DNA from: Betaproteobacteria bacterium
GTDB taxonomy: Bacteria; Pseudomonadota; Gammaproteobacteria; Burkholderiales; Rhodocyclaceae
Length of the DNA stretch: 64,000 nucleotides
Assembly (NCBI GenBank): GCA_020621405.1
Contig: JAHRYN010000002.1
Location: 248,001-312,000 of the forward strand
Direction of reading: 5' to 3'
Part shown: positions 9,644-21,598 of the stretch, in pieces
Layout of the letters: every line of letters begins with the position of its first letter
Position numbering within the stretch: position 1 is the first letter of the stretch
Made by a program: the position numbers and the translations under genes
The notes under the pieces: generated by a model
What the model was told of the DNA's origin: nothing
The model's input: only the letters and a program-made list of their open reading frames with translations
The model's database searches: none

Positions 9644-10015
9644 ATCGCGACCGTGGGTCGCTCCTACAAAAGACACGCCGCTTCGTGGCCATCGCAACCG
9701 CCCCCCAGCGCAAAGCCCGCACCGCGACACCCCTGTAGGAGCGAGCCATGCTCGCGATTGTTCACGCCGAAACGGTGCCGGTCGCTGATTCAAGCTCCGC
9801 ATCGCGACCATGGGTCGCTCCTACGAAAGACACGTCGTTTCGTGGACATCACAACCGGCTCTCCCCGGCATAAAGCCCGCACCGCGACGCCCCCTTGTAG
9901 GAGCGAGCCATGCTCGCGATTGTTCGCGCCGAAACCGCGCCCGCGGTCGATTCACGCGCCGGACAACGCCGATCGATGATCAACGCGTGTTATCGCGAGC
10001 ATGGCTCGCTCCTAC
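9644..10015. repeat. Cluster of five alternating REP-like palindromes in a partial tandem duplication
   Basis: Five 24-bp copies with alternating orientation lie at 9644-9667, 9735-9758, 9801-9824, 9897-9920 and 9992-10015. Each reads GTAGGAGCGA..C on one strand and ends TCGCGAT, with an internal palindrome around CCATG. The flanking DNA is also repeated. Short segments after the first and third copies (for example AAAGACACG then TTCGTGG) recur about 157-162 bp later, so a two-element unit has been tandemly duplicated. The last copy overlaps the gluQ 3' end. The interval 9575-10011 holds no gene. Confidence 0.8.
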
Positions 10016-10911
10016 GTCGTCGTCGTCGCGGGTGCACGGGTGCACGCGGACAGCCGCCAGTGCGCGATGCCCCAGGCAAGCAGCGCATCGCGGCCGGCGG
10101 CAATGGCTTCGGGCGGCGGGGCGTGGTTCAGGAAGCGCAGCGCCTCGACCAAGTCGGATACCGCATCGCGCGGATCGAGCGGTTTTGCCAGCGTCTGCTT
10201 CGACAGTTTTTCGCCGTGCGCGTCGAGCACCAGCGGCACGTGCGCATAGCGCGGCTGCGCCATGCGCAGCGCGCGTTGCAGCAGCATCTGGCGCGGTGTC
10301 GAGGTGAGCAGGTCGGTGCCACGCACGACGTCGGTCACGCCCTGATCCGCGTCGTCCACCACCACGGCCAGCTGGTAGGCGCAGCAGCCGTCTGCGCGCC
10401 ACAGCACGAAGTCGCCGACATCGCGTGCGACGTCGATCGATACCGGACCGCACAGCTGGTCATCGAAGGTCAGATCGCCCGCCGGCACACGGAAGCGCCA
10501 GGCCCGCGGCTTGACGTCGAAACGGTCGCGGCAGGTACCCGGATAGCGCCGCGTACCGTCCAGCGACAGCGGCTGATCTTCGAGATCGCGGCGCGAACAC
10601 GCACAGGCGTAGGCAAAGTCGTCGGCGATCAGCCGATCGAGTGCGGCGCGATAAAGGCCTGTTCGCAGGCTCTGCCAGGTCAGTTCGCCGTCCCAGTGCA
10701 GGCCGAGCGCCTCGAGCTGGTGCAGGATGGTGTCGGCCGCCGCCTTGCTGCAGCGCGGCGCATCGACGTCCTCGATGCGCAGCAGCCATTGCCCGCCATG
10801 CGCGCGCGCATCCAGCCAGCTGGCCAGTGCGGCCACCAGCGAACCCTTGTGCAGCGGACCGGTCGGACTCGGTGCAAAGCGCCCTACGTAAGTTGCGCTA
10901 TCGGCTACCAT
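10012..10911 (-). CDS. gluQ: Glutamyl-Q tRNA(Asp) synthetase
   Basis: A 299-residue paralogue of the glutamyl-tRNA synthetase catalytic domain, lacking the anticodon-binding domain. It attaches glutamate to queuosine in tRNA-Asp. The adenylate-binding motif is GRFAPSPTGPLHKGSL, and the KMSKS-like loop is EKLSKQ. A zinc site is formed by CAC near residue 115 and a later YPGTC. The ATG at 10911 precedes the conserved N-terminus. The C-terminal tail (RAPATTTT) and its TAG stop come from the edge of a REP-like element, so the repeat now sets the end of the protein. The nearby queG makes the queuosine that this enzyme uses. Confidence 0.92.
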   Translation of the reverse strand: MVADSATYVGRFAPSPTGPLHKGSLVAALASWLDARAHGGQWLLRIEDVDAPRCSKAAADTILHQLEALGLHWDGELTWQSLRTGLYRAALDRLIADDFAYACACSRRDLEDQPLSLDGTRRYPGTCRDRFDVKPRAWRFRVPAGDLTFDDQLCGPVSIDVARDVGDFVLWRADGCCAYQLAVVVDDADQGVTDVVRGTDLLTSTPRQMLLQRALRMAQPRYAHVPLVLDAHGEKLSKQTLAKPLDPRDAVSDLVEALRFLNHAPPPEAIAAGRDALLAWGIAHWRLSACTRAPATTTT

Positions 10912-10961
10912 GCCGCCTCGCACCCGCACGACACACACCCGGACCGCATCCAAGGACCCCC

Positions 10962-11333
10962 ATGGCCGCCCTCGAACTGACTGCAGACACCTTCAACACG
11001 ACGATAGAAAACAACGCATTCGTCCTCATCGATTTCTGGGCACCGTGGTGTGCCCCGTGCCGCAATTTTGCCCCGGTCTTCGAAGCCGCGTCGGAAAAGC
11101 ACACGGACATCGTGTTCGCCAAGATCAATACCGAAGTCGAACAGGGCATCGCGGCCGAATTCAGCATCCGCTCGATCCCGACGCTGATGCTGTTCCGCGA
11201 CCAGATCATCCTCTACTCGCAAGCCGGCGCACTGCCCGGCCAGCAGCTCGAACAGCTGATCGCCCAGGCGCGCGCGCTGGACATGGACGCCGTGCGCGCC
11301 GAGATGGCGGCGGAAAAGGCCGCGGACGCCTGA
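10962..11333 (+). CDS. Thioredoxin family protein
   Basis: A 123-residue thioredoxin-fold protein without a signal peptide, so cytoplasmic. The active site is WAPWCAPCRNF, where Ala replaces the usual Gly of WCGPC; this change is expected to alter redox potential. The cis-proline loop is SIPTLMLF. The C-terminus extends past the standard fold as an Ala-rich helix. ATG 10962 has AAGGA a few bases upstream. It is divergent from gluQ and followed by a strong terminator, so it is probably monocistronic. Confidence 0.9.
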   Translation: MAALELTADTFNTTIENNAFVLIDFWAPWCAPCRNFAPVFEAASEKHTDIVFAKINTEVEQGIAAEFSIRSIPTLMLFRDQIILYSQAGALPGQQLEQLIAQARALDMDAVRAEMAAEKAADA

Positions 11334-11371: not shown

Positions 11372-11397
11372 CATGTCGCACCGCCGCGCGGATCCGC

Positions 11398-11940
11398 TCA
11401 GCGGATGAAGCGCTTGAGCACGTCGCGGAACACTGGCGTGTTGGCCTGCTCCAGCCACTCGAACGCGACCATTTCGCGTGTCACGATCTCGGCACCGTTC
11501 TGCTGCATGCGCTGCAGTGCCCGTTCCTTGTCGCGGGGACGGCGCGAGCCGACCGCATCCTCGACGACGAACACCTGGCGCCCCATGGCCAGGCGGTCGA
11601 GCACCGTCTGCTGCACGCAGACATGCGCTTCGGTGCCGACCACGACCCACTGCTTGCGCCCTGCCTCGCGGGACTGCAGCAGCACCCCTTCGGTCAGCGC
11701 CGAGAAGTGCGTCTTCTGCACGATGCTGCCGTCGGGAAAGCGCGCGCGCAGCCCGGGCTCGGTCAGCCCCAGACCTTGCGGATACTGCTCGGTCGCCAGC
11801 ACCGGCACGCCGATGGCCTGCGCCACGTCGACCATCCACGCGGCATTCGCCAGCACCGTTTCGCCGTCGTCGATCGCCGGCAGCAGCCGTCCCTGCAGGT
11901 CGATGACCAGCAGCAGGGAATCGGATGGCTTGATTCTCAT
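11398..11940 (-). CDS. Isochorismatase-family cysteine hydrolase
   Basis: A 180-residue alpha/beta hydrolase of the isochorismatase/nicotinamidase superfamily. The likely triad is visible: D14 (LLVIDLQGRL), K76 (IVQKTHFS) and C108 (GTEAHVCVQQT). Members hydrolyse small amides or enol ethers; the substrate cannot be told here. It lacks the zinc-binding D-x-H-x-H of classical nicotinamidases, which suggests the YcaC/RutB-like side of the family. It starts 27 bp after the flavoprotein gene on the same strand and is probably co-transcribed with it, so it may act in the same degradation pathway. Confidence 0.85.
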   Translation of the reverse strand: MRIKPSDSLLLVIDLQGRLLPAIDDGETVLANAAWMVDVAQAIGVPVLATEQYPQGLGLTEPGLRARFPDGSIVQKTHFSALTEGVLLQSREAGRKQWVVVGTEAHVCVQQTVLDRLAMGRQVFVVEDAVGSRRPRDKERALQRMQQNGAEIVTREMVAFEWLEQANTPVFRDVLKRFIR

Positions 11941-11967
11941 GTCGATATCCTCCTGTACGGCGTGTTC

Positions 11968-13581
11968 TTACGCCCCGGCCTTCCCGGACGCGGGCAGCGG
12001 CACCATCACCGCCTGCCCGGGCTGGCTGCAGCCAGCATCGCAGCAGCGGCCCGGCTGCCTGTTGCGCGTGATCGAACGCGTCTCGTCGGCCAGCACGCCG
12101 CGGTCGAGCAGGCGTTCGACCAGATCGACCTTGTCGCCGACCGGGTAGTTGCGCCAGATTTCCTGCTTCAGCGCGGTCGGCGAGCCGCCGCCGTGCAGGC
12201 TGATCAGCGAATACCAGCCGCCCTGGTAGGACGCGGTCAGATCCTCCATGAAGCGCGCCACCTCGATCCGCTTGTCGTAGGGGATGTCCGGATTGGCGCG
12301 CAGCACTTCGGCCAGCGTCGCCGCCGTCGCCGGGTTGTGGTCCTCGTCCGGGCCCGGCAGCGCGACGATCAGCCCGCCCGACACCTCGTGCGCCAGACGG
12401 TGCATGTCGTAGATCTGGGTGGACAGCAGCAGCTTGCCGATGTTGGAAAACACAGGCTCCGGCATGAAGGTCTTCGAATACGGGTCCGGCGCGGCGTAGA
12501 CGCTGGCCGCGACGCCGCAGGCGTAGAAGCCTTCGGTGATCTTGATCAGCTCGACCATCGGATCGCGCAGATTGGCCTTGCGGTCCGGGTCGAGACCGTT
12601 GGCTTCGCACATCAGCGCGGCGGCGCCGATCAGCAGGTCGCCGAAACCGGCTCGAGCGGCGATGCAGCTGTGGCGGTGGTGGGTGGCGTAGTTGTAGGTG
12701 ACGGCGCCCGAGTGTTCCCATTCGCCGGCCAAGAACACGCGCTCCCAGGGCACGAACACCTTGTCGAAGATCACCACACCGGTGGACTGTCCGTAACGGC
12801 GCGAGAACAGCGGCGATCCGTGCTCCGGCTTCTCGCCCGGGCGCCCGGCAGGGCGCGCGACGATGGTGATGCCCGGCGCGTCGACCGGCACCGCACAGCA
12901 GACCGCAAAGTCGGCATCCGCCTCGATCATGTTGCGCGAGGGCATGACCAGGAATTCATGGACGTAGGGCGCACCGGTCACGATGGCCTTGGTGCCGGAA
13001 ATGACGATGCCCTTGCCGTTGCGCTCGACGATGTGCAGATACACATCCTGATTGAGCTGCTGGTTCGGGCGCTTGCTGCGGTCGCCCTTGGCATCGGTCA
13101 TGGCGATGCCCAGCGTCAGGTCTTCGTCCTGCACGCGCTGCAGATAGGCACCGAAGCGGTCGCCGTATTCGGGGTTGCCCAGCGCGTCGTCGAGGCGTGC
13201 GACCGCCTGGCCGATGCCGTTGAGCGCGTCGTGCGCCAGATAGCGCTGGGCGCAGCCGGTCTCCTGGCACAGGATGCGCACCGCTTCGAGCTTGTTCAGC
13301 AGGTCGCCCGACGACTCGTTGATGTGCAGCATGCGGTTGACCGTCCGGCCGCTGCGCGACTGCACTGCGGTCATCAGCGGCGCCTTGGCCGGATCGTGCG
13401 CGAAGTCGTAGGTCACCGCGAGCGCGTTGATGCCGGGCTGCAGCGACGGCGCGTCGGCCACCGATTCGATCAATTGCCCATCGACATAGACGGTCGGTCT
13501 GTACTTGCGCAGCGAATCGCGGAAGTCCTGCCCGTTCATCAGGCGACCGGTGTCGCTGCCTGCTGTTTCATGCGTTGCCAT
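11968..13581 (-). CDS. 4-hydroxyphenylacetate 3-hydroxylase / 4-hydroxybutyryl-CoA dehydratase family flavoprotein
   Basis: A 537-residue protein with the acyl-CoA-dehydrogenase-like fold shared by HpaB monooxygenases and AbfD dehydratase/vinylacetyl-CoA isomerase. Recognisable segments are LAHDALNGI, DRSKRPNQQ, VISGTKAIVTGAPY, FDKVFVPWERVF and GFGDLLIGAAAL. AbfD binds [4Fe-4S] through two cysteines spaced by three residues before the DALN motif; here C110 is present but the second position appears to be Y114, so a standard dehydratase cluster is doubtful. The C-terminal tail is cysteine-rich (GRCCDAGC). The ATG at 13581 is preferred over an upstream TTG because the TTG lies inside the operator palindrome. 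The precise reaction is unknown; FADH2-dependent hydroxylation or an isomerase reaction are the options. Confidence 0.8.
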   Translation of the reverse strand: MATHETAGSDTGRLMNGQDFRDSLRKYRPTVYVDGQLIESVADAPSLQPGINALAVTYDFAHDPAKAPLMTAVQSRSGRTVNRMLHINESSGDLLNKLEAVRILCQETGCAQRYLAHDALNGIGQAVARLDDALGNPEYGDRFGAYLQRVQDEDLTLGIAMTDAKGDRSKRPNQQLNQDVYLHIVERNGKGIVISGTKAIVTGAPYVHEFLVMPSRNMIEADADFAVCCAVPVDAPGITIVARPAGRPGEKPEHGSPLFSRRYGQSTGVVIFDKVFVPWERVFLAGEWEHSGAVTYNYATHHRHSCIAARAGFGDLLIGAAALMCEANGLDPDRKANLRDPMVELIKITEGFYACGVAASVYAAPDPYSKTFMPEPVFSNIGKLLLSTQIYDMHRLAHEVSGGLIVALPGPDEDHNPATAATLAEVLRANPDIPYDKRIEVARFMEDLTASYQGGWYSLISLHGGGSPTALKQEIWRNYPVGDKVDLVERLLDRGVLADETRSITRNRQPGRCCDAGCSQPGQAVMVPLPASGKAGA

Positions 13582-13606
13582 ATCGGGATCCAATCGGTGT
13601 TCTAAT

Positions 13607-13625
13607 AATTGAACACTGTTCAATT
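13607..13625. promoter_or_regulatory. TetR-type operator palindrome
   Basis: AATTGAACA-C-TGTTCAATT is a perfect 9-1-9 inverted repeat in the 69-bp gap between the divergent flavoprotein and tetR genes. A second overlapping inverted repeat uses GTGTTC (13597-13602) and GAACAC (13611-13616). Size and place fit a TetR-family operator that controls both directions. Confidence 0.75.
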
Positions 13626-13650
13626 CAAGGCCCGAATGTAAGATCCGGAT

Positions 13651-14349
13651 ATGGTCAAGTCAACAGGAAACCCTGCCGAAGACGCGGCAGGCGCAACGGC
13701 GCCGGTCGCACCGCGGGCATTGCGCGAGACCGCCATCAACGAGGCGCGGCGCATGCTGATCCTCGATGCCGCCCGCTCCGCCTTTCTCGAACTGGGGCTG
13801 GATGGCGCCAGCCTGCGCGAGATCGCCAAGCGCGCCGGCTACACGCCGGGCGCGATCTACAGTTACTTCAGCAGCCGCGAGGACATCTACGCCGCATTGC
13901 TCGGCGAATCGCTTGAGCGCCTGAAGCAGTGCGTCGATGGCGCGGCAGCCGGCGACGGGAGCCCGGTGCCGGACACGCCGGTGGCCGCATCGGCAGTGCT
14001 GCGCGCGCGGGCACTGGCCTTCTTCATCTTCTACCGCGACAACCCGCAGGACATGGACCTCGGTTTCTACCTGTTCAACGGCGCCCGACCGCGCGGCCTG
14101 ACACCGGAACTGAACCAGCAGCTGAACGGGCAGTTGCTGGCCACGCTGCGGCCGATGCAGGAAATGCTGGCCGCGCTGGGCCTGCCGGCGGTCGAGGCCG
14201 AAGCCGAAACCACCGCGATCTTCGCCCACGCCGTCGGCCTGCTGATGCTGAACAACACCGGTCGCATCCGGCTGTTCCAGCAGGACGCACTGGCGCTGTT
14301 CGAGCATTACCTGGACGCACTGCAGACGCGGCTCGTCGCCCGGAACTGA
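13651..14349 (+). CDS. TetR/AcrR family transcriptional regulator
   Basis: A 232-residue repressor-like protein. After a disordered Ala/Pro-rich stretch of about 25 residues comes the TetR helix-turn-helix: ILDAARSAFLELGLDGASLR, then EIAKRAGYTPGAIYSYFSSR. The C-terminal ligand domain is alpha-helical and not assignable to a ligand. It is divergent from the flavoprotein gene with a perfect palindrome between them, the usual layout for local repression. The inducer is probably the flavoprotein substrate or its CoA ester (inference). Confidence 0.92.
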   Translation: MVKSTGNPAEDAAGATAPVAPRALRETAINEARRMLILDAARSAFLELGLDGASLREIAKRAGYTPGAIYSYFSSREDIYAALLGESLERLKQCVDGAAAGDGSPVPDTPVAASAVLRARALAFFIFYRDNPQDMDLGFYLFNGARPRGLTPELNQQLNGQLLATLRPMQEMLAALGLPAVEAEAETTAIFAHAVGLLMLNNTGRIRLFQQDALALFEHYLDALQTRLVARN

Positions 14350-14452
14350 AGCCGGCTCCATCGGCATTCATCCGGCGACCAGGAACGGCCGGCCCGGCGC
14401 ACGGCACTCAATCTTCGCGCCCCCGAGTGCACTCCCGCGGCGGATGGCGGCA

Positions 14453-14471
14453 TGCGACATGTCCGGTCGCG
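14453..14471. promoter_or_regulatory. Inverted repeat, copy 1, upstream of the double-AAA gene
   Basis: TGCGAC-N7-GTCGCG, ending 39 bp before the AAA gene start. The same architecture recurs at 16698-16716 upstream of the DUF2779 gene, ending 46 bp before that start. It is a candidate operator for the WYL regulator of the block. Confidence 0.5.
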
Positions 14472-14509
14472 GCGCATCCCGACAATGACCTTCACCAAGG
14501 AGGTCGTCC

Positions 14510-16609
14510 ATGTCATCAGTGCTGCGGGTGGTTCACACACCACCGGTTCCCGAACTCAACGCCCGGCTGCGGCTGTGGCTGCTGCGTCTGCTGGTGCCGC
14601 TGGGCGCCCACCGCGCCTTTCTGGACAAGCCCGGCTACCGCTGCGACAGGCTGGCCGCCGCACTGGACCTGACGTCGGGCAACAGCGACGAGAGCGAGGA
14701 CTACGATCCGCGGCAGGCCAAGACCCGCCTGCTGCGCCTGCATGAAAGTGCCGAGCGGCAGGCCACGGGCAGCGCATCGTCGCCCTGCCTGCAACACAAT
14801 CTGGCACGGCTGTCGGCGCTGGCGGGCCTGTCGGACATCGACCGGCGCGTGCTCGAATTCGTCGTGCACATCCACAACGAACGTCTGCTGGACGACACGG
14901 CCGACTGGCTCGGCGCACTGTCTTCGGCGCGGGTATTCCATGCGCTGTCGCTACTGCTGGACGCTCCGCTGGATGAGGTCCGCGCCGCACTCGGCCCGCA
15001 CGGCGTGCTGGCCAGGTCGGGACTGGTGACCGTGGATCGCCATGGCCTGGCAACCCTGCGCGGCAAACTCGACCTGCTATCCGCCGGCTTCGCCGACCGG
15101 ATCACCTCGACCGATGCCGATCCGGTCAGCCTGCTGCGGGACATGGTGTCGCCGAGCCCGCCCACGCGCCTCACACTGGACGATTACCCGCACATCCGGC
15201 CGACACTAGACGTACTGCGTCCCTACCTGAAGAACGCGCTGGCGACGCGGCGTGCCGGCGTCAACGTGTTCGTGCATGGCGCGCCCGGCACCGGCAAGAG
15301 CGAACTGGCGCGGGTGCTGGCGTACGACCTGGGTTGCGACATGTTCGAGGTGGCCAGCGAGGACGCGGACGGCGATCCGGTCGCTGGCGAACGCCGCCTG
15401 CGCGCCTTCCGGGCGGCGCAGAGCTTCTTTGCCGGGCACCCGAACCTGATCCTGTTCGACGAGGTGGAAGACGTGTTCGGCGACGGCAACGAATGGCTCG
15501 GCCGCAAGAGCACCGCCCAGGTCCGCAAGGCCTGGCTGAACCGGACGCTGGAAGACAACCCGGTCCCCGCGCTGTGGCTGTCCAACACCATCAGCGGTCT
15601 GGACCCGGCCTTCATGCGCCGCTTCGATCTGGTGTTCGAACTGCCGGTTCCACCGCGGCAGCAGCGGGTGCGCATCCTGCAGACGGCCTGCCGGGATCTG
15701 CTCGACGCACCCACCCTGGAGCGCATCGCGGCATCGGCGTCGCTGGCCCCCGCCGTCGTGACGCATGCGGCCGCGCTGGTGAACAGCATCCGCGACGGCG
15801 TGGCCCCGGCAGCCGCAGCCGCAGCCTTCGAACTGGTCATCAACAACACCCTGCGGGCCCAGGGCCACGAACCTGTGCGCAGGCACGATCCGGACCACCT
15901 GCCCGAGGCGTACGACCCGGCATTCATCAAAGCCGATGCGGATCTGGCCGGCGTGGCGCGCGGCCTGCAGCAGTCCGGCGCCGGCCGCCTGTGCCTGTAC
16001 GGCCCGCCCGGCACCGGCAAGACCGCCTGGGGCCGCTGGCTGGCCGAGCGGATGGACACGCCGCTGCTGATCAGGCGCGCGTCCGACCTGTTGTCGAAAT
16101 ATCTCGGCGAAAGCGAACGCAACATCGCGCGCGCCTTCCGGCAGGCCGGAGAGGACGGTGCGGTACTGCTGCTGGATGAGGTCGACGGCTTCCTGCTCGA
16201 TCGCCGCTGTGCCGGACAAGGCTGGGAAGTGAGCGTGACCAACGAGATGCTGACGCAGATGGCGTCGTTCGCCGGAATCTTCATCGCATCGACCAACCTG
16301 ATGACGGAACTGGATCAGGCCGCCCTGCGCCGCTTCGACCTGAAGGTGAAGTTCGGCTACCTGCGCCCCGATCAGGTCGAGGCGATGCTGGAGCGGTACT
16401 GCGGCCTGTGGCAGCTGCCCACGCCCTCGCCGGACGAGCGGCTGGCCGCCCGCCGGCTGCACCGGCTGACGCCGGGCGACTTCGCCGTGCTGACGCGGCA
16501 GCACCGGTTTCGCCCGATGGGCTGCGTGCAGACGGTGCTGGATTGCCTGCGCACCGAATGCACGCTCAAGGAGGGCGGACCACGCACCGTAATGGGCTTC
16601 GTGCCCTGA
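14510..16609 (+). CDS. Protein with two AAA+ ATPase domains, first gene of putative nuclease/defence block
   Basis: A 699-residue soluble protein. Residues 1-230 are a helical N-terminal region I do not recognise. AAA domain 1 has Walker A GAPGTGKS (257-264), Walker B LILFDEVED (313-321) and a sensor/arginine-finger-like RRFD (370-373). AAA domain 2 has GPPGTGKT (498-505), VLLLDEVDG (552-560) and RRFD (608-611). Both domains keep the acidic DE pair, so both could hydrolyse ATP. The layout suggests a hexameric remodelling ATPase acting on a protein or nucleic-acid complex. A strong Shine-Dalgarno AAGGAGG (14497-14503) supports ATG 14510. Downstream in the same direction are a Cas4-like protein, a WYL regulator and a PD-(D/E)XK nuclease. 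I infer that it powers the nuclease partners; an unrelated chaperone role is possible. Confidence 0.85.
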   Translation: MSSVLRVVHTPPVPELNARLRLWLLRLLVPLGAHRAFLDKPGYRCDRLAAALDLTSGNSDESEDYDPRQAKTRLLRLHESAERQATGSASSPCLQHNLARLSALAGLSDIDRRVLEFVVHIHNERLLDDTADWLGALSSARVFHALSLLLDAPLDEVRAALGPHGVLARSGLVTVDRHGLATLRGKLDLLSAGFADRITSTDADPVSLLRDMVSPSPPTRLTLDDYPHIRPTLDVLRPYLKNALATRRAGVNVFVHGAPGTGKSELARVLAYDLGCDMFEVASEDADGDPVAGERRLRAFRAAQSFFAGHPNLILFDEVEDVFGDGNEWLGRKSTAQVRKAWLNRTLEDNPVPALWLSNTISGLDPAFMRRFDLVFELPVPPRQQRVRILQTACRDLLDAPTLERIAASASLAPAVVTHAAALVNSIRDGVAPAAAAAAFELVINNTLRAQGHEPVRRHDPDHLPEAYDPAFIKADADLAGVARGLQQSGAGRLCLYGPPGTGKTAWGRWLAERMDTPLLIRRASDLLSKYLGESERNIARAFRQAGEDGAVLLLDEVDGFLLDRRCAGQGWEVSVTNEMLTQMASFAGIFIASTNLMTELDQAALRRFDLKVKFGYLRPDQVEAMLERYCGLWQLPTPSPDERLAARRLHRLTPGDFAVLTRQHRFRPMGCVQTVLDCLRTECTLKEGGPRTVMGFVP

Positions 16610-16697
16610 ACGGACACACGCCTGACGCGGCCGGGGTCACCGGAACCGGCCCGCCATGGTCTGCCGCATGTCGCACGCCGACGCAGCCGGCAGCTCA

Positions 16698-16716
16698 TGC
16701 GACGTATTCTGTCGCA
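16698..16716. promoter_or_regulatory. Inverted repeat, copy 2, upstream of the DUF2779 gene
   Basis: TGCGAC-N7-GTCGCA, with a further GTCGCA half-site at 16670-16675. It lies in the 152-bp gap between the AAA and DUF2779 genes. The spacer carries TATTCT, a possible -10 element, so binding here could block transcription of the nuclease-regulator genes. Confidence 0.5.
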
Positions 16717-16761
16717 CACTGGACACAAACTGTCGGCATCCGTTCCTCGCAGAGAAATCAC

Positions 16762-18282
16762 ATGTCCGCCCACACAGGTCTGTCGAAGTCGAAACTGCTG
16801 CTCTACCGCCAGTGCCCCAGGCGCCTGTGGCTGCAGATCCACCGGCCGGAGCTGGCCGAGGACAGCGACGCCGTCGAACGCGTGATGGCGGCGGGCACCC
16901 TGGTCGGAGAGGTTGCGCGAGACCTTCACCGGGGCGGCATCCTGATCGAAACCGGCGATCTGGCCGGAAATATCGAGCTCACCCGGCAACTGCTTGCCTC
17001 GCAACCGGACACACCGCTGTTCGAGGCAACCTTCGCCCACGACGGCGTGCTGGTGCGCGCCGACCTGCTGATCCCGGACGGTGCCGGCCATCGCCTCGCG
17101 GAGGTGAAGTCATCGACCTGGGTCAAGCCCTACCATCTGGACGATGCGGCGATACAGACCTGGGTGGCAAGGGGCGCCGGCGTCGCGGTCACGCGCGTGG
17201 AACTGGCGCACATCAACAACCGCTTCGTGTATCCGGGCGGCAGCAACTATCAGGGCTTGTTCACCCATGCCGACGTGACCGCCGAGGTGACCGAGCGCAT
17301 CCCCCGTATCGCAGTCTGGGCCGACGGCGCGAGGCAGATCCTGCGGCACGGAGAACCGGACATCGCGCCCGGCGCGCACTGCAACGATCCCTTTGCCTGT
17401 CCGTTCGCCGGGTACTGCGACCGGCAGGCGAACCCGGCCGGAACCGCCACGGCGGAATTCCCGGTCGACATCCTGCCGCGCCACGGCGGCCTGGCCGACG
17501 CCTTGCGCGAAGAGGGCTTCCATGACCTGCGGCAGGTACCGGAAGAACGCCTGCAGCGGGACGTGCACCGGAAGATCTGGCGCATCACCCGCGCCGGTCG
17601 GGCGGAAATCGCCGACGACGGCAGGCAGTTCGCGCGGGACCTGCCCTGGCCGCGCTTCTATCTGGATTTCGAAACCATCTCTTTCGCCGTACCGCGCTGG
17701 CCGGGCACGCGGCCCTACCAGCAGATCCCTTTCCAGTTCTCGTGCCACGTCGAACCGGCTCCGGGGCAGCTGATGCCTCAGGCCTTTCTGCGCACCGATG
17801 GCAGCGATCCCCGGCGCGACTTCGCCGAAGCGCTGCTCGAAGCCACGAACCCTGCATGGCTGGCCGATCTCGGCATGGCCGACCTGCCGCCCGGCCCGAT
17901 TCTGGTCTATAGCATCGGCTTCGAGCGCGGCCGCGTGCAGGAACTGGCGGCGCAGTTCCCCGATCTGGCGCCGGCACTGAACGCCATCGCCGAGCGCATG
18001 ATCGATCTGCTGCCGATCACCCGCGCGCACTACTACCACCCCGGGATGCGCGGCTCGTGGTCGATCAAGGCGGTGTTGCCAACGCTCGGCGCCGACCTCG
18101 ATTACGAAGGCATGACGGTGGCCGACGGCGGCATGGCGCAGGAGGCGTATCTGGAGATGATCGATGCGGGCACGTCCCCCGAACGGCGTGAAACCCTCCG
18201 TCAGGGCCTGCTGGATTACTGCGCGCTGGACACCTTTGCGCTGGTCAGGCTGGTGGAATTCCTCGCCAGAGGGGAGGTTTGA
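16762..18282 (+). CDS. Cas4-like / DUF2779 putative nuclease
   Basis: A 506-residue two-part protein. The N-terminal half is RecB/Cas4-like: LSKSKLLLYRQCPRRLW with C18, D101, then E114-V-K116 (LAEVKSS) and Q132. Three further cysteines, C207, C213 and C219, could complete a [4Fe-4S] cluster with C18, as in Cas4 and AddB. The C-terminal half is DUF2779, with YLDFETISFAVPRW (D302, E304) and LLDYCALDTFALVRLVEFL (D490), acidic motifs in the pattern of an RNase H-fold/DEDD exonuclease. Both catalytic sets look intact. ATG 16762 sits right before the conserved start. WYL follows at 5 bp, so the two are one transcript. Nuclease activity is inferred from motifs, not shown for this family in detail. 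Confidence 0.83.
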   Translation: MSAHTGLSKSKLLLYRQCPRRLWLQIHRPELAEDSDAVERVMAAGTLVGEVARDLHRGGILIETGDLAGNIELTRQLLASQPDTPLFEATFAHDGVLVRADLLIPDGAGHRLAEVKSSTWVKPYHLDDAAIQTWVARGAGVAVTRVELAHINNRFVYPGGSNYQGLFTHADVTAEVTERIPRIAVWADGARQILRHGEPDIAPGAHCNDPFACPFAGYCDRQANPAGTATAEFPVDILPRHGGLADALREEGFHDLRQVPEERLQRDVHRKIWRITRAGRAEIADDGRQFARDLPWPRFYLDFETISFAVPRWPGTRPYQQIPFQFSCHVEPAPGQLMPQAFLRTDGSDPRRDFAEALLEATNPAWLADLGMADLPPGPILVYSIGFERGRVQELAAQFPDLAPALNAIAERMIDLLPITRAHYYHPGMRGSWSIKAVLPTLGADLDYEGMTVADGGMAQEAYLEMIDAGTSPERRETLRQGLLDYCALDTFALVRLVEFLARGEV

Positions 18283-18287
18283 GCGCG

Positions 18288-19316
18288 ATGCCCAAAGCCG
18301 CCCAGCATCATGCCCTGGCACGCCAGTGGGAAATCCTGCGTCTGCTGCCCGGTCGGGCGCCGGGCATCACCGCCCGCGATCTGGCGCTGAAACTGCACGA
18401 CACCGGTTTTGCCGTCACCAAACGGACGGTGGAGCGCGACCTGGTCGAGCTGTCATCGCTGTTCGGCATCGAGTGCAACGACAAGGGCATGCCCTACGGC
18501 TGGCACTGGATGCGCGGACAGGAAGCGATCTTGCCCGGCCTCAGCGTGGCCGATGCGGTATCCATGCGTCTGGTCGAGGAACTGCTGCGCCCGCTGCTGC
18601 CGCCCGCAATACTTGAGCCGCTGGAAAGCCGGTTCGGACAGGCCCGCCGGAAGATGTCCGAACTGGGCGGCGACAATAAGGCTGTCCGCTGGGCCGACAA
18701 GGTGCGTTACGTGCCGCCGTCGCTGCCCATGCAGACGCCCGCCATCGACCCGGCGGTTCTGGACACCGTGCAGCAGGCGCTGATGGATGGCCGCGCACTG
18801 CGGGTTGCGTACCGCAGGCCGACCGGAGACATCGCCGAAGACCTGCCGCTGCATCCGCAGGCGCTGGTGCAGCGCGGCTCCGTCACCTATCTGGTCGCCA
18901 CCGCCTACGACTACGACGATCTTCGCCTGTATGCAGTGCATCGCATGTTGGCGGCCGAGGCAGCGCTCGACGCATGCCGCGCAGTGCCCGGCTTCACGCT
19001 GGATGCCTACCTCGCCTCCGGCGCGCTGCAGTTCCACGCCGGTGCGGCGATCCGTCTGCAGGCGCACGTATCCGGCGACCTGGGCGTCTTGCTCGCCGAG
19101 ACGCCGCTCGGGCCGGATCAGCAACTGGAGCCGGTGCCGGACGGTTACCGGATGACCGTCACGGTCATCGAATCCCGCCAGCTGCTGTGGTGGATATTGA
19201 GCCAGGGCACGGCCATCAGGGTGCTGGGGCCGGAGGCGCTGGTCGCGCAGATGACGCAGCACGCACGATCCATCGCCGGCCTCTATGGCGGCGTGCCGGA
19301 CACGCGCGACGGCTGA
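18288..19316 (+). CDS. WYL-domain transcriptional regulator
   Basis: A 342-residue regulator. A winged helix-turn-helix N-terminus (about 10-75) includes ITARDLALKLHDTGFAVTKR and TVERDLVELS. The WYL domain lies at about 165-265, with VTYLVA in place of the usual WYLVA and RLYAVHRM supplying ligand-contact arginine. A WCX-like C-terminal extension follows. WYL proteins such as CapW and BrxR sense nucleic-acid-related ligands and repress phage-defence operons. ATG 18288 is chosen because GGGGAGG (18271-18277) is 10 nt upstream, while an in-frame TTG at 18279 is too close to it. It is probably the local repressor that binds the TGCGAC-N7-GTCGC repeats (inference). Confidence 0.88.
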   Translation: MPKAAQHHALARQWEILRLLPGRAPGITARDLALKLHDTGFAVTKRTVERDLVELSSLFGIECNDKGMPYGWHWMRGQEAILPGLSVADAVSMRLVEELLRPLLPPAILEPLESRFGQARRKMSELGGDNKAVRWADKVRYVPPSLPMQTPAIDPAVLDTVQQALMDGRALRVAYRRPTGDIAEDLPLHPQALVQRGSVTYLVATAYDYDDLRLYAVHRMLAAEAALDACRAVPGFTLDAYLASGALQFHAGAAIRLQAHVSGDLGVLLAETPLGPDQQLEPVPDGYRMTVTVIESRQLLWWILSQGTAIRVLGPEALVAQMTQHARSIAGLYGGVPDTRDG

Positions 19317-19389
19317 GCCCGCCCTGCTTGTTCGGCATTGCCGCGGGCACGCCATCGACTTCCGTTCAATCCATCATCAGGCACGATCC

Positions 19390-20418
19390 ATGAAACCGAA
19401 TCTGTTCAGCAACGCCACCAAGGAACTGGCCCAGGACGGTTTTTTCGTCTGGCTGCTGCAATGGGCCGATCCGTCGAACCGTGGCCACGACGAAAACCTT
19501 CACGCACTGGCCCAGGATCTGATCAGGACCCTGATGGACCTGCCCGGCGATTTCGTGATCAGCAAGGTGGAAGCCGGCAGACAGTGGCAGGGCGCCATCG
19601 ACCTGTGGGCGGAAATCAACGACGAATTCTTCCTGCTGATCGAGGACAAGACCGATACGTCCGAACATTCCGACCAGCTGGTGCGCTACCGGAAGATGGC
19701 CGAAGATCATTACCTGCCGAAGCAGTTCAAGCTGCGCTTCATCTACCTCAAGACCGGCAACGAATCGGACACATTGCTCGCCGGGGTTGTGGAAAAAGGC
19801 TACCGGGTATTCGAGCGTCGCGACATCCTCGCGACATTCGACCGGCACCGGGTCGCCAATCACATCTACAGCGACTTCAACGAGCACCTGCGCAACATCG
19901 AGCGCGAGTCATCATCCTATGCCGTTCATGCAAAGCTGGTGTCCAGCTGGTACGCGGCACAGGGCTTCTGCAAGGCACTCCAGAAGATCAAGGGAGGCGA
20001 TGCAGACTGGGGTTACGTCGCCAACCCGACCGGCGGCTTCCTCGGATTCTGGTACTTCTGGAATGGCAACAGCGTGTTCCGGGAGATCTACATACAGATC
20101 GAGAACGCCTTCGACCGCGGCATCCAGGTGGTCATCAAGGTCGCCGACTGGGACGAGAACATCGACCACCTGTACGAGCAACTGGAAATTCTTGCCGAAT
20201 GTGGAAGGCAGGCCGGCGTGGCGCTGGTCAAGCCGCGCCGCTTTCGGGCAGGCGCCACCTCCACGCTGGCCATCGCCGAAGACATCATCCGCGCCGATCC
20301 GGACGGCCTGCTGGACCAGGCTCATCTGCAGGCTTCGCTCGGCTATCTGGAGAGGGCTCTCGATCGGTACTGCGTCATGACGCAGGCCGCGCCGGACGGA
20401 AACGCCGGCGGCAGCTGA
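19390..20418 (+). CDS. PD-(D/E)XK nuclease superfamily protein
   Basis: A 342-residue soluble protein with a visible PD-(D/E)XK core near the N-terminus: D71 (QGAIDLW), then E85-D-K87 (LLIEDKTDTS) and Q96 (SDQLVRYR). This resembles the PDDEXK_4 group. The C-terminal half is rich in aromatic residues (GGFLGFWYFWNGNSVFREIY) and may bind DNA or a partner; I cannot name it. It starts 73 bp after the WYL gene on the same strand and ends before a strong terminator, so it is probably the last gene of the block. Such proteins are common in defence islands and restriction-like systems. Function is inferred from motifs only. Confidence 0.82.
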   Translation: MKPNLFSNATKELAQDGFFVWLLQWADPSNRGHDENLHALAQDLIRTLMDLPGDFVISKVEAGRQWQGAIDLWAEINDEFFLLIEDKTDTSEHSDQLVRYRKMAEDHYLPKQFKLRFIYLKTGNESDTLLAGVVEKGYRVFERRDILATFDRHRVANHIYSDFNEHLRNIERESSSYAVHAKLVSSWYAAQGFCKALQKIKGGDADWGYVANPTGGFLGFWYFWNGNSVFREIYIQIENAFDRGIQVVIKVADWDENIDHLYEQLEILAECGRQAGVALVKPRRFRAGATSTLAIAEDIIRADPDGLLDQAHLQASLGYLERALDRYCVMTQAAPDGNAGGS

Positions 20419-20454
20419 CGCTTCCGCCGAACGCGCGGCCCTCCCGGAAATGAA

Positions 20455-20487
20455 AAGGCCCGGCAAGCGGCAGGCTTGCCGGGCCTT
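20455..20487. terminator. Bidirectional terminator between the nuclease gene and ychF
   Basis: Inverted repeat AAGGCCCGGCAAG / CTTGCCGGGCCTT, 13 bp, with a 7-nt loop. A-rich sequence precedes it. It lies between convergent genes and serves both. Confidence 0.85.
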
Positions 20488-20506
20488 CCGACGGTCAGTT
20501 CAACCG

Positions 20507-21598
20507 TCACACGTTGAACAGGAAGTTCAGCACGTCGCCATCCTTGACCACGTATTCCTTACCTTCGGCGCGCATCTTGCCGGCTTCCTTGGCGCCCTGT
20601 TCGCCCTTGCAGGCGATGAAGTCGTCGAAAGCGATGGTCTGGGCGCGGATGAAGCCGCGCTCGAAGTCGGTGTGGATGACGCCGGCAGCCTGCGGTGCGG
20701 TGTCGCCCTTGTGGATGGTCCAGGCGCGCACTTCCTTGACGCCGGCGGTGAAGTAGGTCTGCAGGCCGAGCAGGTCGTAGCCGGCGCGGATCAGCCGGTT
20801 CAGGCCCGGCTCGTCCAGACCGAGGTCGGACAGGAAGGCCATCTTGTCGGCGTCATCCAGATCGGCCAGTTCGGCTTCGATCTTGGCGCACAGCGCGACG
20901 ACCGGCGCGCCTTCCTTGGCCGCATGCTCGCGCAGGCGGTCAAGGTAGGGATTGTTCTCGAAACCGCCCTCGTCGACGTTGCCGACATACATGGCCGGCT
21001 TGAGCGTCATCAGGCACAGCGGCTTGAGCAGCAGCTTTTCGTCGTCACTCAGCGCCAGCGTACGCGCCGGCTTGCCGTCGTTCAGGTGCGGCAGCAGCTT
21101 TTCCAGCACGGCCACAAGTTTCTGCGCGTCCTTGTCGCCGGCGCGCGCCTTCTTGCTGTCGCGGTTCAGTGTGCGCTCAACCACGGCCAGGTCGGACAGC
21201 CCCAGTTCGGTGACGATGGTTTCGATGTCGGCGATCGGATCGACGCGGCCATTCACATGCACCACGTTCTCGTCGTCGAAGCAGCGCACGACGTTGACGA
21301 TGGCGTCGGTCTCGCGGATGTTGGCCAGAAACTGGTTGCCCAGCCCCTCGCCCTTGCTCGCGCCGGCGACCAGACCGGCGATGTCGACGAATTCGACGAT
21401 GGCCGGCTGGATCTTCTGCGGCTTGACGATTTCCGACAGCGCGGCAAGCCGCGGATCGGGCACTTCGACGATGCCGACGTTCGGTTCGATGGTGCAGAAC
21501 GGATAGTTCTCCGCCGCGATGCCGGCCTTGGTCAGCGCATTGAACAATGTTGATTTACCGACATTCGGCAGACCGACGATGCCGCATTTGAGGCTCAT
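20507..21598 (-). CDS. ychF: Redox-regulated ATPase YchF (Obg family)
   Basis: A 363-residue P-loop protein, the exact usual length. The P-loop is [14 protein letters not shown] near the N-terminus and [10 protein letters not shown] is the G3 region. The NKXD motif is altered to a VGNVDE type, consistent with the ATP rather than GTP preference of YchF. The C-terminal TGS domain ends in DVLNFLFNV. It binds ribosomes and acts in stress response and translation quality. The start overlaps the pth stop in an ATGA, giving a coupled pth-ychF unit as in many bacteria. Confidence 0.96.

Follow-up and report, generated by a model that had tools for sequence, protein, structure and literature searches.

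A mobile block of AAA, DUF2779, WYL and PD-(D/E)XK genes with DriD-type operators, a candidate regulated DNA-degrading module

The transcription regulator DriD of Caulobacter crescentus recognizes a palindromic site, ATACGAC(X)7GTCGTAT, which overlaps the -35 element, and its targets include recJ, bapE and dnaG (PMC12340889; literature statements here and below draw on excerpts of the papers cited). Further known targets in such excerpts are didA and a TonB-transporter operon. The BrxR and CapW repressors are WYL regulators that stand beside defence genes (PMC9122601), and the fusion of a Cas4-like DUF83 domain to DUF2779, with a predicted 3'-5' exonuclease activity, is already in print (PMC3985635). 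Here we describe a block of four genes, A to D, in a 64,000-nucleotide stretch (the window) from a Betaproteobacteria bacterium of the Rhodocyclaceae (GCA_020621405.1, contig JAHRYN010000002.1, positions 248,001 to 312,000 of the forward strand). Gene A encodes an AAA ATPase, B a Cas4-like nuclease with a DUF2779 domain, C a WYL regulator and D a PD-(D/E)XK nuclease of family PDDEXK_4. The block is a recurrent, mobile module under DriD-type control, and we put at about 0.5 the probability that it is a mobile, regulated DNA-degrading module inducible by damage or single-stranded DNA (ssDNA). The domain fusion of B being known, what is new here is the gene linkage and the shared operator, neither of which we found described in the literature searched, which was largely PubMed Central with few subscription papers or preprints.

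The product of C has the helix-turn-helix (HTH), WYL and WCX layout of DriD; its WYL and WCX domains score above the Pfam cut-offs and its HTH match is weak. When the profile of the C family was compared with solved chains, DriD was the best relative (expectation value, E, 5e-18), followed by PafBC (3e-15), whereas BrxR (1e-4) and CapW (4e-4) were far weaker matches. C therefore belongs, by nearest sequence, with the WYL activators of the DriD/PafBC type, and the preliminary description, which had made it a CapW/BrxR-type regulator, was mistaken on this point; the operator is likewise of the DriD kind. Two HTH arginines of the C family, with i, i+4 spacing, are kept in 46/51 and 49/51 sequences and probably correspond to the pair on which promoter binding by SiwR depends (PMC10693628). 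Residues R208, R211 and R214 of the WYL pocket of PafB align with R213, A216 and R219 of C. R213 is found in 33/51 sequences, R219 in 42/51, and Y201 is kept in 20/20 (alignment A8). It counts against ssDNA sensing that the middle arginine of the pocket, the difference from DriD, is alanine both in C and in 35/51 of the family, the equivalent R211 of PafB being required together with R214 for ssDNA binding (PMC11804915). Because C keeps the PafB-like pocket only in part, ssDNA is a likely but not a safe candidate for its ligand. The partly kept pocket would also suit a repressor in the style of CapW/BrxR, a kind known to regulate defence loci (PMC9122601), that holds the nucleases off until some other ligand arrives, with the palindromes as repressor sites. 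We regard such a repressor as quite unlikely, since C is clearly more similar to the activators DriD and PafBC and the palindromes have the spacing of the DriD site.

The same palindrome, GCGAC-N7-GTCGC, precedes A and B in the window and, in distant loci, A, B or C. Its core, CGAC-N7-GTCG, and its 7-bp spacing match the published DriD site (PMC12340889), and the operator found in the block is, judged by its letters, of the DriD type; the DriD targets given in the excerpt of that paper differ in including no AAA/DUF2779/PDDEXK_4 module. Across 145 loci (2.354 Mb) we counted 72 exact sites, compared with 1 to 17 at 14 other spacings (mean 7.6), 3 in a shuffle and at most 19 for any of 29 same-letter decoys, and control stretches (337 kb) held 0 exact sites. 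An exact site lies 5' of 9/58 A genes, 8/94 B genes and 8/83 C genes, as against 35/1595 other genes; with one mismatch allowed the counts are 23/58, 15/94, 21/83 and 98/1595, respectively. The distance from site centre to called start has a median of 41 bp over 27 cases, and the two window sites, at 49 and 56 bp, fit this. Even in L028, where A and B/C are apart, each is preceded by the operator. The consensus of the sites is TGCGACA-N5-TGTCGCA. This strict form occurs in 4/37 genomes with A or B and in 0/35 without, which is not significant alone, and three of the four sites accompany genes of the family (A in G138, PDDEXK_4 in G126 and C in G379), while its backward control pattern has matches in 2/72 genomes. 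An extended form of the palindrome, CATGCGAC-N7-GTCGC, occurs twice in the window, where 0.01 are expected, and four times in the whole genome (3.8 Mb), two of these sites being in the block and two inside called ORFs (open reading frames).

Several observations weigh against a shared operator. The extended form was chosen post hoc, after it had been seen in the window, and the plain palindrome, with 2 sites in the window against 0.52 expected, is not significant, as 12/100 shuffles reach 2. The exact operator precedes only 25/235 A, B and C genes (59/235 with one mismatch), within 600 bp 89/123 A/B loci have no exact copy, and the density of one-mismatch sites in these loci is only about 1.5 times that of the control. 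The test of the strict form is weak, the window's own genome having none, and no exact operator was found upstream of D-type genes (0/8). Divergence of the regulator may explain the A/B loci without an exact site.

Two further sites were noted outside the A, B and C genes. An exact GCGAC-N7-GTCGC lies about 60 bp 5' of a recC-like gene, near A and PDDEXK_4 genes (L252:14918-14986, genome G388), a hint that in some bacteria recBCD-like genes may be under regulators of the DriD type. A strict operator stands at the start of an unrelated gene for a 449-residue protein whose N-terminus is HTH-like (L295, G289:C14:24464-24482); this gene, which is distant from the A fragment of the same genome, is a possible further member of the regulon.

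The genes of the block are linked well beyond its own genome. Of 101 genomes (its own and relatives), 6 have B, 7 have A (E 1e-30), 14 have C (E 1e-15) and only its own has D; in a class sample of 350 genomes the numbers are 23 for B, 24 for A, 42 for C and 15 for PDDEXK_4. With its own genome left out, pairs within 10 kb in the remaining 349 class genomes were far more frequent than under random placement: there were 5 A-B pairs (0.09 expected), 9 A-C (0.24), 5 B-C (0.10), 3 A-PDDEXK_4 (0.07), 2 C-PDDEXK_4 (0.06) and 1 B-PDDEXK_4 (0.04). Co-occurrence in genomes was significant for every pair but B-PDDEXK_4 (p 0.22). We also inspected named loci, the best 80 of at least 511, which were picked and oriented by similarity to B and hence do not sample genomes at random. 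Outside the window, ORF calling followed a mechanical longest-first rule, which leaves start codons uncertain and yields some spurious neighbour ORFs. A B ORF was called in 74 of the 80. A relative of C accompanied it in 49 loci, A in 21 and PDDEXK_4 in 10, with A, B and C together in 18, and at least one of these partners was present in the fetched flanks (up to 10 kb) of 53/74. The linkage counts and the named-locus counts exclude a chance grouping of the genes.

All four gene types occur in two metagenome-assembled genomes, of a Pseudomonadota (L064) and a Latescibacterota (L098), in each of which the D-type gene adjoins B, and a plasmid of Sphingobium yanoikuyae carries PDDEXK_4, A, C and B. 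A, B and C follow one another in a row on plasmids of Rhodoferax antarcticus and Diaphorobacter, and genome G126 has, on one strand and in this order, PDDEXK_4, A, a GmrSD-type gene and C. DUF2779 proteins themselves occur from Pseudomonadota to Latescibacterota. The expectation that the genes are found together elsewhere was thus borne out as recurrent linkage, but the arrangement is not fixed: order, strand and partners vary between loci, and we rejected a single conserved four-gene operon. The genes were first put forward as one system; elsewhere A, the B-C pair and PDDEXK_4 are modules in varying orders. Two points weigh against an obligate association, namely that 21/74 B loci have neither A nor C nor PDDEXK_4 (some contigs being short), and that D-type genes also stand alone on plasmids.

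The window block itself looks like a composite. Its B and C are nearest to those of Dechloromonas agitata (57 and 56% identical), where the fetched stretch has a PDDEXK_4 gene after C and no A, whereas its A is nearest to that of L113, a locus of the A-B-C lineage (61%). Because of these different nearest lineages, the block appears to consist of two transcription units, A and B-C-D, each with an operator, that were joined by recombination. The same ancestry, together with the solitary D-type genes and the variable orders and strands, could mean that there is no joint machine, and that recombination merely merged separate genes of defence islands (A, the B-C pair and D) that have at most a regulator in common. 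This is rather doubtful in our judgment: A, B and C occur together in 18 of the 74 B loci, tightly packed in several, and one operator precedes both A and B/C even when they are apart. The pairwise distances of A, B and C also correlate over 23 loci (r 0.55-0.76, permutation p 0.0002), although shared host ancestry produces such a correlation too.

The four ORFs are intact and, as the preliminary description stated, co-directional, all on the plus strand (Table 1). AAGGAGG lies close 5' of the ATG of A, and the genes are separated by 152 bp (A-B), five bases (B-C) and 73 bp (C-D).

Table 1. Features of the A-D block and of the insert that carries it (window positions).
Feature	Position	Strand	Description
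Gene A	14510..16609	+	699 residues; tandem AAA ATPase, Cdc48/p97/Rix7-like D1-D2, predicted protein unfoldase/remodeller
Gene B	16762..18282	+	506 residues; N-terminal Cas4/AddB-like Fe-S (iron-sulfur) nuclease and C-terminal DEDDy 3'-5' exonuclease-like domain (DUF2779, PF11074)
Gene C	18288..19316	+	HTH-WYL-WCX transcription regulator, DriD/PafBC type; TTG at 18279 is a possible start
Gene D	19390..20418	+	342 residues; PD-(D/E)XK nuclease, family PDDEXK_4 (PF14281)
Operator 1, CATGCGAC-N7-GTCGC	14451..14470	+	Centre about 49 bp 5' of the ATG of A; same core 5' of other A genes
Operator 2, CATGCGAC-N7-GTCGC	16696..16715	+	Centre about 56 bp 5' of the ATG of B; same core 5' of other B genes
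Inverted repeat, perfect, 14-bp	20455..20487		Between convergent D and ychF; terminator-like call on the minus strand only
Accessory insert	11372..20502		Isochorismatase-like, monooxygenase-like, TetR, then A-D; conserved flanks; near-empty site in G005

The A protein has two AAA domains (PF00004). Both ATPase sites are intact, as had been proposed, with whole Walker A and B motifs that are also kept in relatives, and arginine fingers are present in both domains in the alignment, where two short or diverged rows lack parts of them. Its N-terminal region of about 220 residues has no family match. The structure model (predicted local distance difference test, pLDDT, 84.5; predicted template-modelling score, pTM, 0.61) matches Rix7, Cdc48, NVL and p97 (best E 9e-19). 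The second AAA domain has the consensus SxYVGETE, and its conserved Y-x-G presumably is a peptide pore loop. Since Rix7, Cdc48, NVL and p97 act on proteins, A is more likely, on the strength of its modelled fold, an unfoldase or remodeller than a DNA motor. Among the AAA defence ATPases in PADLOC, the second AAA domain resembles IetA of the IetAS system (E 1e-34) and TRIP13. A reaches only 107.9 of the 510 bits that the NCBIfam anti-phage ATPase model sets as its cut-off, and the block has no protease or HORMA partner. Membership of IetAS was therefore rejected, the IetA cut-off not being reached and none of the four genes encoding a subtilase.

The B protein combines two nuclease domains (DUF2779 Pfam match, E 3e-42), and both the Cas4/AddB-like Fe-S set and the DEDDy set are invariant in 35/35 aligned sequences. 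The invariant residues are K9, C18, E88, D101, E114, K116, Q132, C207, C213, C219, D302, E304, D415, Y486 and D490. The D101, E114 and K116 of the preliminary description were thus confirmed, and its D302/E304/D490 is extended to a complete DEDDy set of D302, E304, D415, Y486 and D490 (D-E-D-Y-x3-D). The structure model (pLDDT 93.9) found Cas4 chains in Foldseek (E 1.5e-4 to 8e-4), then RecE and MGME1; TM-scores against the Cas4 chains are low since only one domain aligns. The second domain matched E. coli ExoI in the structure search at E 0.009 only. B shares with Cas4/AddB-type Fe-S nucleases the four cysteines, the D-E-K-Q core and a Cas4-like fold, but we did not file it as Cas4, because neither the block nor the listed ORFs around it include a cas1/cas2, addA-like or helicase partner. 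As for the published DUF83-DUF2779 fusion, the excerpt of PMC3985635 contains no genomic system around it.

The D protein matches PF14281 with 32.3 bits (gathering score 22.3). It has the D-ExK motif, and its site D71, E85 and K87, also claimed earlier, is conserved in all three aligned sequences. The PADLOC candidate PDC-S26 matches D in the nuclease core only (residues 58-122, E 4e-11); judging by its label, we take PDC-S26 to be a single-gene entry.

The block lies within a 9.1-kb insert between a gluQ-like region (10012-11310) and ychF (20507-21598). These two flanks are side by side in 12 same-genus genomes, to which the stretch 11372-20502 does not align: in G005 the site is near-empty (about 20 bp), and in the others about 0.7-5.7 kb of other content fills it. 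A, B and D have no match among these 12 genomes, and a relative of C occurs elsewhere in one (G005). The G+C content of the insert (0.668) is so close to that of the window (0.652) that composition gives no hint of a donor. Among 72,556 plasmid records, homologues of B were found on 29, of A on 13 (E 1e-50) and of D on 4. We rejected a phage origin, as 50,697 phage records gave no DUF2779 match at E 1e-5, and found no block in E. coli at the level of megablast, a search that leaves distant relatives out. From its distribution and its setting, the block is evidently a mobile accessory module.

The surroundings are as first described, with tetR on one side and ychF-pth-rplY on the other, and only the strong terminator once placed at the end of the block needs qualification: the repeat there is perfect, but the sole terminator call is for the minus (ychF) side and none is on the plus strand. 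Pfam recognized the TetR gene of the insert. We take two other genes of the insert to be isochorismatase-like and 4-hydroxyphenylacetate-hydroxylase-like.

In several loci the genes are found near known or candidate defence genes. A close homologue of ZacC of the Azaca system (zacABC) adjoins A-B-C in Acidovorax sp. FJL06 (E 2e-269), although A, B, C and D are not themselves Azaca genes. In L113, A-B-C is followed by genes for a protein without a family, a PLD-like protein and a helicase; this trio resembles ZacB/ZacC weakly (3e-8, 8e-12), and other defence helicases match better. Judged by annotation and gene order, the Rhodoferax plasmid has a similar trio after A-B-C, and a Pantoea plasmid has one after A-C. 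In G299, A and B flank a Sir2 gene, and GmrSD-type genes are present in L064 and L254. The window has no Azaca, GmrSD, BREX or Sir2 type gene adjoining the block. In a PADLOC scan of nearest neighbours (E 1e-10), counted by family and not by matching member, 28 families had matches among 104 neighbours, compared with 10 families among 98 control ORFs. Many of the neighbour matches are single cases, and the control count excludes six ORFs (L292) whose stretch lies beside an A locus. The scan mildly supports a defence context. The block matches no system of PADLOC-DB 2.0.0 (2023), giving only partial-domain matches to different systems and no full-length matches to one, so that we rejected membership of any of them; that no named system has this set of genes stands for this database.

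Two plasmids deserve separate mention. On a Sphaerotilus plasmid (L228:7718-11879), BREX pglZ/brxD are followed by a WYL gene, an A-type AAA gene and Sir2, the last possibly a different effector for A. Beside the A-B-C-PDDEXK_4 cluster of the Sphingobium yanoikuyae plasmid (L129:11456-13668), a second WYL gene is divergent from a gene for a RecB-like nuclease of the TM0106 family, a pair that parallels the WYL-nuclease pairing of the block.

Our best guess is that the purpose of the block is defence, with repair as the main rival. A mobile DNA-repair module, in which damage leads a DriD-type regulator to switch on an unfoldase and two nucleases for the processing of broken or crosslinked ends, would agree with the type of operator and regulator, DriD activating recJ and bapE in Caulobacter and having dnaG among its targets (PMC12340889). 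It would agree as well with the repair-type folds of the Cas4/AddB-like and ExoI-like domains and with the operator upstream of the recC-like gene of G388. We nevertheless think repair fairly improbable and defence more likely, as a patchy, mobile distribution (plasmids, an accessory insert), the exchange of partners and nearness to Azaca, GmrSD, BREX and Sir2 genes are more usual for defence. The analysis brought no housekeeping role to light. The preliminary proposal of a defence or DNA-processing system is accordingly retained for its recurrence, its mobility and its neighbours, and given up as regards a CapW/BrxR-type regulator and one fixed operon.

In the reading that we favour, the module would act as follows. 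C, an activator of the DriD/PafBC type, would be made at a basal level and would bind a ligand, most likely short ssDNA from phage replication, plasmid entry or DNA damage. Ligand-bound C would then bind the two palindromes and switch on A and the B-C-D unit. The single chain of B would attack DNA with both a Cas4/AddB-like nuclease of the 5'-3' type and a DEDDy exonuclease running 3'-5', and D, the PD-(D/E)XK nuclease, would attack it alongside B. A, a hexameric p97-like unfoldase if its fold is a guide, may thread or remodel a protein, either one on the invading DNA or the nuclease complex. Taken further, and as a tentative possibility that we hold at somewhat less than even odds, the block may represent an undescribed mobile, ssDNA-triggered immune system. 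In such a system a DriD-type infection sensor would command a p97-like unfoldase, a PD-(D/E)XK nuclease and a two-ended exonuclease, and in other hosts the effectors (DUF2779, PDDEXK_4, Sir2, PLD/helicase) would be interchangeable.

If the reading of a regulated, ssDNA- or damage-inducible module is true, it would connect a mobile nuclease module, located in or close to defence islands, with the SOS-independent, ssDNA-sensing WYL pathway of Caulobacter and mycobacteria, and would give DUF2779 proteins a function. The 17-bp operator offers a handle for finding further members of the regulon and makes the idea directly testable.

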